Part shown: positions 4,681 through 17,393 of the stretch, piece by piece
Layout of the letters: every line of letters starts with the position of its first letter
How positions within the stretch are numbered: the stretch's first letter is position 1
Assembly (NCBI GenBank): GCA_023954635.1
Contig: JAGSHI010000023.1
Span: 1 to 37,816 of the forward strand
Length of the DNA: 37,816 nt
Direction of reading: 5' to 3'
From: Bacteriovoracaceae bacterium
GTDB lineage: Bacteria > Bdellovibrionota > Bacteriovoracia > Bacteriovoracales > Bacteriovoracaceae
Notes under the pieces: model-generated
What the model was told of the DNA's origin: nothing
The model's database searches: none
What the model saw: only the letters and a program-made list of their open reading frames with translations
Position numbers and translations under genes: made by a program

Positions 4681-4888
4681 GGTACGTCACACCTTTTACG
4701 GACTACGCATTATTTCCATCAAAAACTATACATACCTAAAATCATTACTTAGAATTTATGTATAAGTACCCAATGTATTTGAGCATTGTGGTCAAGAATT
4801 TCAAGGATGACATTCTTGTTTAAAACGCAGACCGTCCTGTTTACTAACCCTTTAACAACCCCTCATGTATTCATGTCTAGTGGTTCCT

Positions 4889-4921
4889 TGCAGGTGATAA
4901 ACCTGTATCCGGAGGTTTATT
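4889..4921 (+). promoter_or_regulatory. Two mutually exclusive hairpins controlling the phoH ribosome binding site
   Basis: Just before the phoH start the leader can form hairpin A, 4889-4895 pairing with 4901-4907 (CAGGT/ACCTG core plus a G-U and a U-A pair, loop GATAA). It can also form hairpin B, ATAAACCT (4897-4904) pairing with AGGTTTAT (4913-4920) around the loop GTATCCGG. Hairpin B buries the Shine-Dalgarno GGAGG (4911-4915) that serves the TTG at 4922. Hairpin A captures the same ACCT and frees it. This sequester/anti-sequester arrangement is seen directly. A regulatory role is inferred. Confidence 0.5.
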
Positions 4922-6238
4922 TTGGATAAGGCTTTTGTACTCGATACAAACGTAATTCTTTTTGATCCCATGGCAATTTTTAAATTCGGCAGAAATGAAG
5001 TTTATCTTCCTCTCGTCGTAATTGAAGAAGTTGACCGCTTTAAAAAAGATCAGAATGAAAATGGTAGAAATGCCAGACATTTTTCAAGAATCATTGATGA
5101 TCTCAGACACCAAGGAAGCTTGAACGCTGGTGTCGATTTAGAAAATGGTGGAAAACTGATCATCACTGTCGATAGAGAAGTTAAGTCTAATCCACATTTT
5201 GACTTAACACTTGCTGACAATAAAATTTTGGCCACGGCGCTCGCTTTAAAAGAAGAAGGCAAAAATACTCTTCTTGTTACTAAAGATATAAATCTAAGAC
5301 TTAAATCCGATGTCTTAAATCTTAATGCCGATGACTACGGGAAAAAAGATGTTTCCATTGATGAGCTTTATCAAGGGCATCGAGTTTGGGAAGTTGGTGC
5401 AAATGAACTTACTGAGTTTGAAAAAGATCGATTTCTAGATATGGACGATGCTGAGATTCATGGAATTTTTCCAAACGAATATCTCATTCTTCAAGAACAA
5501 GGAAATGATCGAAGAAGATCTCTTGGAAGATACTGTAAAAAGAAAAGAGGCATCGTTCCTCTAATTCCAATGAGAGAGGGAGTTTGGGGAATATATCCAA
5601 AAAATATGGAGCAACAGTTTGCTCTTGATGCACTTTTAAATGATGAAATAGCTCTCGTTTCTTTAGTTGGAAAGGCAGGAACTGGTAAAACATTACTTGC
5701 GATTGCCGCGGGACTTGAGAAAACAGTTACTGATGAGAAGTTTTCAAGACTTTTGGTTTCAAGACCTGTCCAGCCAATGGGTAAAGACTTAGGTTATTTA
5801 CCAGGGGATATTAACGATAAGTTAGGTCCTTGGATGCAGCCAATTTTTGATAATATGGATTTTCTTTTTGGGCAACAAAGTCAAAGGGGAGAAGGTTCAA
5901 GTAGTAGTTATGAAGATCTGATTAATCACGGTCTTCTTCACATCGAACCTCTTACTTATATCAGGGGACGATCTATTCCTGGTCAATATTTGATTGTCGA
6001 TGAGGCCCAAAACCTTTCTCCACACGAAGTGAAAACGATTATCACCAGAGCAGGAGAGGGAACAAAGATTGTTCTAACTGGTGACTGCCATCAAATTGAT
6101 AGTCCTTATTTAGATGAAGTTAACAATGGTTTAGCATATTGTGTTGATCGTCTTAAGAGTGAAGATATTATCGGTCATACAACATTAAAAGTTGGAGAAC
6201 GTTCAGCATTGTCTGAAGCTGCATCAAAACTACTTTAG
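4922..6238 (+). CDS. phoH: PIN domain-PhoH ATPase (YlaK/PhoH2-like)
   Basis: This is a 438-residue fusion of two domains. Residues 1-140 are a PIN ribonuclease domain with its acidic positions visible in FVLDTNVILFDP (D8), VIEEVDRFK, LADNKILATAL and LVTKDINLRL. Residues about 220-438 are a PhoH-type P-loop ATPase: Walker A GKAGTGKT at 250-257, Walker B YLIVDEAQN, then the sensor region VLTGDCHQID. PIN-PhoH proteins are ATP-dependent RNA-unwinding and RNA-cleaving enzymes in other bacteria. Translation starts with TTG at 4922, chosen because GGAGG lies 6 bases upstream and the PIN strand begins at residue 2. A PilZ gene follows after 2 bases, so the two are probably one operon. The leader hairpins suggest post-transcriptional control. 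Confidence 0.93.
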   Translation: MDKAFVLDTNVILFDPMAIFKFGRNEVYLPLVVIEEVDRFKKDQNENGRNARHFSRIIDDLRHQGSLNAGVDLENGGKLIITVDREVKSNPHFDLTLADNKILATALALKEEGKNTLLVTKDINLRLKSDVLNLNADDYGKKDVSIDELYQGHRVWEVGANELTEFEKDRFLDMDDAEIHGIFPNEYLILQEQGNDRRRSLGRYCKKKRGIVPLIPMREGVWGIYPKNMEQQFALDALLNDEIALVSLVGKAGTGKTLLAIAAGLEKTVTDEKFSRLLVSRPVQPMGKDLGYLPGDINDKLGPWMQPIFDNMDFLFGQQSQRGEGSSSSYEDLINHGLLHIEPLTYIRGRSIPGQYLIVDEAQNLSPHEVKTIITRAGEGTKIVLTGDCHQIDSPYLDEVNNGLAYCVDRLKSEDIIGHTTLKVGERSALSEAASKLL

Positions 6239-6240
6239 TT

Positions 6241-6807
6241 ATGGAAAATAGAAAGTTTAAAAGACAACACTTAAGAGCTCCGTTATTTACGGAGTTTCTT
6301 TTTGAAGATGATTCACATGTCTTAAAAGCAAGAGTGAATAATATTTCAGAAGGTGGTGTTTTGCTCGAGGCCCTACCTCACGTTCCCGAAATTAACTTAA
6401 TGCCACTTATGTTAGAAATTCCTGAATACCCAAGCTTTTCAAACTTAGGAAGAGAAAAACTTTTAAGTGTAAATCTCTATGGAATAGAGAGTAAAATTTT
6501 AAGAGTTCGTGCCAAAATGGTTCGAACTTTTGAGGCCAAGAGTGCTGTCGATCTCATCTTCGTCCCGAAAATCGGATGTCGATTTGTCACACCATCTGAT
6601 GAGTTTACTGAAACAATAAAAAACTATGTTTCGACCTTTTCAAAAAATATGATTTTTCTTTTAAATTTGTTTGAATCTTCATCTTCAAAAACACAGATCG
6701 ATATCATTAGACATGTATCAAGCTTTCTTGGTTATCAAAGTGATGAAAAAATTTCGATTCTAAGACAAAAGGTCCTGCACGATTATCAATCTCTTGAAAG
6801 TGTGTAA
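6241..6807 (+). CDS. PilZ domain c-di-GMP-binding protein
   Basis: The product has 188 residues. The N-terminus has both parts of the PilZ ligand site: R8-x3-R12 in KRQHLR, and N34-I-S36-E-G38-G39 in VNNISEGGVLLE. These are the two motifs that grip cyclic di-GMP. The PilZ fold covers about residues 1-120, and the C-terminal 60-70 residues are helical (ETIKNYVSTFSKNMIFLLNLFESS). No output enzyme is fused, so it probably acts by contacting a partner. It starts 2 bases after the phoH stop codon, with no visible promoter and no clear Shine-Dalgarno, implying translational coupling to the PIN-PhoH protein. Cyclic di-GMP controls motility, adhesion and, in Bdellovibrio-like bacteria, the predatory cycle (known biology, not visible here). 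Confidence 0.85.
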   Translation: MENRKFKRQHLRAPLFTEFLFEDDSHVLKARVNNISEGGVLLEALPHVPEINLMPLMLEIPEYPSFSNLGREKLLSVNLYGIESKILRVRAKMVRTFEAKSAVDLIFVPKIGCRFVTPSDEFTETIKNYVSTFSKNMIFLLNLFESSSSKTQIDIIRHVSSFLGYQSDEKISILRQKVLHDYQSLESV

Positions 6808-17335: not shown

Positions 17336-17393
17336 GTAATTGAAATAGTAAAAATGTATTGAGTAAAAAGTCTAATTATAGACTTAGGTGGAA

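Follow-up and report, generated by a model that had tools for sequence, protein, structure and literature searches.

A predicted CsrA-binding hairpin in the leader of the PIN-PhoH gene of a Bacteriovoracaceae bacterium

Results and Discussion

The PIN-PhoH locus and its leader

The window analyzed here is a stretch of 37,816 nucleotides of DNA from a member of the Bacteriovoracaceae, and the gene at the center of this work lies on its forward strand at 4922 to 6238. It starts with a TTG codon at 4922 and encodes a protein of 438 amino acids that matches both Pfam PIN_4 (1.2e-29) and Pfam PhoH (2.1e-47), bearing out its identification as PIN-PhoH in an earlier note on this DNA. A PilZ-domain gene (6241 to 6807, +) follows directly on its 3' side after a gap of 2 bases, and a PilZ homologue was found in 49 of the 59 phoH loci examined. 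The PilZ-domain gene probably shares an operon with PIN-PhoH, and a PilZ protein of the c-di-GMP type may come under the same control. The Shine-Dalgarno (SD) sequence of PIN-PhoH is GGAGG at 4911 to 4915 (+), in the context CCGGAGG, which lacks the A required in CsrA hexaloops.

The region from 4681 to 4921 holds no open reading frame (ORF) of at least 80 amino acids, in agreement with the gene-free leader of about 210 bases previously described, and no ORF for a small antitoxin of the PhoAT type was recognized directly upstream of PIN-PhoH. An Rfam scan gave no match in the leader, the sole match in the window being a tRNA. In the mycobacterial phoAT-phoH2 system, the PIN-PhoH protein has the same architecture, RNase plus helicase, but there a small upstream PhoAT is cotranscribed with it (PMC7390352), whereas we recognized no conserved small ORF at the present locus, where control is apparently exerted by an RNA hairpin. 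A 16-codon ORF (MYLSIVVKNFKDDILV, 4773 to 4823) overlaps the two upstream hairpins described below and differs by 1 residue in the nearest relative; it shows no sign of translation and is not an evident PhoAT.

A GGA-loop hairpin conserved in the genus

Between 4793 and 4818 (+) the leader is predicted to form a CsrA-binding hairpin, CAAGAAU-u-UC[AAGGAU]GA-c-AUUCUUG, with its hexaloop at 4803 to 4808. The core of this structure, UC[AAGGAU]GA at 4801 to 4810, lies within a 9-pair hairpin and presents the A-N-GGA loop that characterizes CsrA/RsmA targets. The CsrA consensus obtained by SELEX is RUACARGGAUGU, in which the loop is ARGGAU, and GGA in CsrA sites is found in a loop that usually has six bases (PMC7652899). 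The AAGGAU hexaloop fits this consensus, the second pair below the loop being U-A in the window and A-U in the consensus. A further hairpin, P1 (CCAATG...CATTGtGG, 4770 to 4791, +), is predicted just 5' of the GGA hairpin; its sequence is identical in the nearest relative (locus L002), so that variation cannot speak to its pairing.

When the leader of the window was aligned with that of L002, positions 4770 to 4828 proved to be much better conserved than their flanks. The loop, as AAGGAW, is retained in all three species of the genus that were sampled, one genome each, and in the third of these (locus L003) the counterpart AGAAGU-a-UUC[AAGGAA]GAA-g-AUUUCU has the same loop and architecture on a stem of different sequence. 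A conserved loop on a varying stem, the pattern expected of CsrA targets, is thus seen within the genus (n = 3) and also among the SD hexaloops of the family as a whole. ARGGAW hexaloops with at least 9 pairs occur 4 times in 1.6 Mb of family strand-bases, or 0.0004 times per 160-nt leader, a rate that serves as an indication and not as a formal probability, since the pattern was defined after the window had been inspected. In the genome of the window, TCAAGGATGA was counted 16 times, as against 11 for the reversed pattern, a comparison that is uninformative on its own. The predicted probability of the GGA hairpin was 0.94 to 0.99 in folds ending by 4960 and dropped to 0.05 when folding extended to 4985 or 5020 (at least 60 coding bases).

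Five Halobacteriovorax-like leaders carry AATAATCAAGGA within a longer, bulged stem, and a formal covariation analysis of these five gave an unfavorable covariation term. Two leaders of genus g6 (L013 and L015) share GACCATT(A/G)TGGTCAAG, about 100 nt upstream of the phoH start, with the CATTGTGGTCAAG of the window; both retain a following hairpin with altered stems, that of L013 having the loop AGCCAA and no GGA. We considered whether 4755 to 4840 might be a dispersed repeat and rejected this, the only good matches being to the region itself and to the L002 leader, with all others short and weak. A scan for intrinsic terminators in the leader found none.

Promoter candidates and the extent of the transcript

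A promoter scan identified a candidate sigma70-type promoter, TATACA-17-TAGAAT, at 4727 to 4755 (+), with a predicted transcription start at about 4762. The scan returned 2 matches in this stretch where 1.1 would be expected by chance, so that the candidate is weak when taken alone; at the aligned place L002 has TATACA-17-TAAAAT. Among the Halobacteriovorax-like leaders, the equivalent hairpins directly follow a promoter-like sequence, TTGCA(A/T)-17-TACAAT, as in L007 and L012, where TTGCAA-17-TACAAT lies just 5' of the hairpin. An mRNA made from the promoter at 4727 to 4755 would include the GGA hairpin.

A nearer candidate lies at about 4855 to 4882 (TTTAAC-19-TCTAGT in the window, TTTAAC-17-TATAGG in L002), and transcripts from it would lack the GGA hairpin. 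If phoH were transcribed mainly from this site, its mRNA would begin at the SD-proximal hairpin H1 (see below) and would carry neither an aptamer nor a CsrA hairpin. The hexamers and spacing in L002 look reasonable by inspection, and in many other genera the promoter seems to be placed so as to give a short leader. Set against this, the copy in the window is poor and was missed by the scan, and such a transcript would leave the strongly conserved upstream block unexplained; we therefore think it unlikely that the nearer site is the main promoter.

GGA hairpins in phoH leaders of the family

We compared 92 phoH leaders from the family, after removal of duplicates, with 662 control genes taken from 40 stretches, each of 20 kb, in genomes of the same family. 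Where the SD region contains ANGGA, 34/50 phoH leaders and 22/196 controls formed a hairpin with a loop of six or seven bases on a stem of at least 4 pairs (p = 3e-15), and ANGGAN hairpins with stems of at least 6 pairs were present farther upstream in 11/92 phoH leaders and 14/662 controls (p = 5e-5), both p values being inflated by the relatedness of the leaders. Averaged per genus, the phoH rate was 0.40 (45 genera), compared with 0.094 for control genes. Of 31 distinct pairs of SD arms, 13 had at least 4 pairs; when the arms were re-dealt, the mean was 3.8 and none of 2000 deals reached 13. A C-G pair closes the loop in 25/40 versus 5/92, and the outer positions use many pair types.

The first base of the loop is informative. 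With ANGGAG as the SD sequence, a stem of at least 5 pairs was found in 20/40 phoH leaders; with an SD sequence starting with C, G or T, it was found in 1/44 (p = 3e-7), and the same split among controls gave 4/92 and 4/113. CsrA requires A-N-GGA, whereas for structures that form generally at SD sequences the identity of the first loop base should be irrelevant. The dependence on A thus contradicts a general SD structure, and its family-wide occurrence at loop position 1 fits CsrA specifically. Motif thresholds were set while the data were being inspected; the first-base comparison and the flagellin control described below were run afterwards as checks.

The position of the site differs between lineages. 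In many other genera it lies on the SD sequence itself, and in genus g5 (L129/L053 and L131) the hairpin GAAAACC[AATGGAC]GGTTTTC is followed after about 20 nt by the SD sequence GGAG, within the 10 to 63 nt over which CsrA is known to bridge two sites (PMC7652899). With CCGGAGG as its SD sequence, the PIN-PhoH leader of the window falls among those that have no SD hexaloop and carries the upstream hairpin instead. A second GGA at the SD sequence and within bridging range, common though not obligatory in CsrA targets, was not found in the window, where about 103 nt separate the SD GGA (4911 to 4913) and the hexaloop. The strict scan found no qualifying hairpin in 42/92 family leaders, including all of the Halobacteriovorax-like ones with their bulged CAAGGA hairpin, and there was no enrichment in other families (5/55).

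CsrA, FliW and flagellin leaders

The genome from which the window comes encodes CsrA (contig C70; PF02599, 3.3e-25) with the RNA-contact residues L4 and R44 retained (MLVL...IHR44, locus L286), and csrA exceeds the family cutoff in this genome and in 56/69 genomes. FliW is encoded in this genome as well, fliW being found in 34/43 genomes, and csrA and fliW are neighbors here. The csrA leader in L286, with fliW directly 3' of csrA, contains CAGAAC[AGGAAG]GTTCTG just above the SD sequence, a sequence pattern that suggests CsrA autoregulation. Neither csrA nor fliW was matched in the assembly of the nearest relative (G002), which is rated complete; the two genes being neighbors elsewhere, a single missing stretch may account for both absences.

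Flagellin mRNA is the classical target of the CsrA-FliW system, with GGA hexaloops upstream of and at the SD sequence (PMC4894983; PMC7652899). The identical scan, applied to 37 flagellin leaders from the family, found SD hexaloops in 17/33 and upstream GGA hairpins in 24/37. The flagellin leader of the genome under study (L284) contains ATGAAGG-AAAGGATT-TTCTTCAT together with AATATC[AAGGAG]GATAGT, and across the flagellin loci (L284 and L255 to L282) an upstream GGA hairpin lies near -37 and an SD hexaloop near -12, on stems that vary between genera. As a positive control, these leaders indicate that the scan recovers expected CsrA targets, and the phoH leaders resemble them. A DksA/TraR-like gene in L247 (ORF at 17337, +) has two leader hairpins with GGA loops, AGTTAGC-AAGGAA-GCTAACT and GCCTTTAAGAAGGATTTTGAAGGT, and is a candidate for a further CsrA target on the strength of these motifs.

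A model for CsrA control of PIN-PhoH

Taken as a whole, the comparisons suggest that the PIN-PhoH leader is a CsrA-controlled 5' untranslated region, a reading to which we assign a probability of roughly two in three. The earlier note had proposed a regulatory leader, and a leader mediating posttranscriptional control does seem likely, with the difference that the element would be the GGA hairpin at 4793 to 4818, outside the interval (4889 to 4921) that had been put forward. Transcription would start at about 4762, and the mRNA would fold at 4793 to 4818 to expose the hexaloop as a high-affinity site; motif and conservation are as described above, and CsrA is predicted to bind there. The bound CsrA dimer would most likely lower PIN-PhoH translation or mRNA lifetime, the direction of the effect being uncertain, and the GGA of the SD sequence might provide a weaker, second contact. 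Free CsrA would be set by FliW and flagellin, as in other CsrA-FliW bacteria, so that PIN-PhoH, and probably the PilZ-domain gene too, would track the state of the flagellum. In the genera that have the hairpin on the SD sequence, ribosome occlusion would be a straightforward mechanism.

Several characterized leaders offer points of comparison. Like those of Campylobacter jejuni flaA and Bacillus subtilis hag, the present system combines hairpins with ANGGA hexaloops, both at the SD sequence and upstream of it, with csrA and fliW in the genome; the same SD hexaloop occurs on phoH in many family members, and the flagellin leaders of the family are of the two-hairpin kind. The target here differs in being an RNase/helicase gene, and the window has the motif only in the upstream hairpin. 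Escherichia coli glgC, which CsrA represses, likewise combines a high-affinity upstream hairpin with a GGA at the SD sequence, and the g5 leaders come closest to this layout, whereas the spacing in the window is too long for documented bridging. Intervening helices would shorten the path between the two sites, and an effect on mRNA stability or activation of the flhDC type is conceivable.

In E. coli flhDC, CsrA protects the 5' end of the mRNA (PMC7652899), and by that precedent CsrA bound near the 5' end of the phoH mRNA could shield it from decay and activate expression. In the window genus and the Halobacteriovorax-like relatives, the hairpin indeed sits near the predicted start of transcription, a long way from the SD sequence. 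flhDC has two sites, whereas a single strong site is predicted here. Most other genera with the site have it on or just before the SD sequence, which predicts repression, and activation would thus call for a lineage-specific reversal; we regard it as improbable.

CsrA might also be uninvolved, the conserved block at 4770 to 4818 acting instead as an operator in the DNA, as a weak terminator or as the site of another RNA-binding protein. The near-identity of the window and L002 leaves room for this, for two of the three genus members cannot separate constraint on DNA from constraint on RNA. L003, with the same loop and architecture on different stem sequences, argues against it, as do the lack of a terminator-like site and the family-wide need for A at the first loop position, which fits CsrA, and we consider such an explanation quite unlikely.

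In a literature search that covered mostly papers available without subscription, we found no paper treating phoH as a CsrA target, and none pairing CsrA with Bacteriovorax or with PhoH-like proteins and GGA. PIN-PhoH in the Bacteriovoracaceae is a predicted CsrA target that is apparently new to the literature searched. Nothing in the comparisons pointed to autoregulation by PIN-PhoH itself, an option raised in the earlier note.

Hairpins at the Shine-Dalgarno sequence

Three further hairpins adjoin or include the SD sequence. H1 (TGCAGGT-GATAA-ACCTGTA, 4889 to 4907, +; 7 bp with one G-U) lies directly 5' of it, H2 (ATAAACCT-GTATCCGG-AGGTTTAT, 4897 to 4920, +; 8 bp) is an alternative that hides it, and H3 (AUCCGGAG/UUUUGGAU, 4907 to 4927, +), with arms at 4907 to 4914 and 4920 to 4927, draws both the SD sequence and the start codon into pairing when certain stretches are folded. 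The earlier note had H1 and H2 competing for one ACCT, and the two are present and mutually exclusive, sharing the ACCT at 4901 to 4904. Its statement that H2 hides GGAGG holds for the AGG, which is paired, and not for the first GG, which sits in the loop of H2.

In ensembles calculated at 15, 25 and 37°C for several plausible transcripts, H1 had a probability of 0.74 to 1.0 and H2 one of at most 0.05 (0.00 to 0.03 at 15°C). Where pairing of the SD sequence was predicted, it arose mainly through H3 and not H2, the probability of H3 lying anywhere between 0.03 and 0.96 depending on the stretch and the amount of coding sequence folded. H1 alone folds at -8.5 kcal/mol, matched by 1 of 200 shuffles, in a test on a short stretch that had been chosen for being a hairpin; for the complete leader, the gain in stability over its shuffles is slight (z = -1.23). 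Hairpins of at least 7 bp just before the SD sequence occur in 12 to 15% of control genes, and general hairpins of this kind, enriched only about 1.5-fold before phoH, were rejected as the signal there. Overlapping pairs of the H1/H2 kind were found in 11/370 control genes (3.0%) and 4/83 phoH leaders (4.8%; Fisher p = 0.49).

Comparison of the leader among relatives, one of the checks that had been proposed, told H1 and H2 apart in L002 (protein 92% identical): H1 is kept there as TTGCAGT/GCTGCAA, with one pair altered on both sides, a single compensatory change, whereas the 5' arm of H2 is lost. H3 is weakened in L002 by one A-A mismatch and shows no sign of conservation, and inspection of L003 by eye revealed no H1 or H2. 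We found no conserved aptamer with two retained alternative folds, as a translational riboswitch would have, and H2 is not the dominant SD-hiding hairpin in the cold that a thermosensor would melt on warming; a sensor built on H3, which is not conserved, is conceivable. Because H2 is improbable and lost in L002 and the base rates of such pairs are ordinary, the translational switch proposed for 4889 to 4921, which also has no Rfam match, is probably not real, and we hold it to be very improbable in spite of the mutual exclusion of its hairpins and the compensatory change in H1. H1 is plausible as an ordinary SD-proximal hairpin, and H2 is best read as a chance match, a complementary stretch overlapping an ordinary pre-SD hairpin.

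Conclusions

PIN-PhoH proteins, which occur widely, remain poorly understood, and to our knowledge little is known of their control outside the mycobacteria. CsrA is best known for governing flagella and lifestyle decisions, and the Bacteriovoracaceae are predatory bacteria that switch sharply between swimming and growth. If correct, our reading would place an RNase/helicase under CsrA in a family of predatory bacteria, and the candidate site is directly testable through a single GGA triplet (4805 to 4807). Comparison across the family also offers a route to listing CsrA targets where the literature searched gave no binding data. Extended to the family, the proposal is that PIN-PhoH and its PilZ neighbor may be direct targets of CsrA in a CsrA-FliW-flagellin circuit, with repeated shifts of the hairpin between the SD sequence and upstream positions; we see this broader proposal as evenly balanced, and under it RNA decay capacity would be tied to the flagellar state of these predators.
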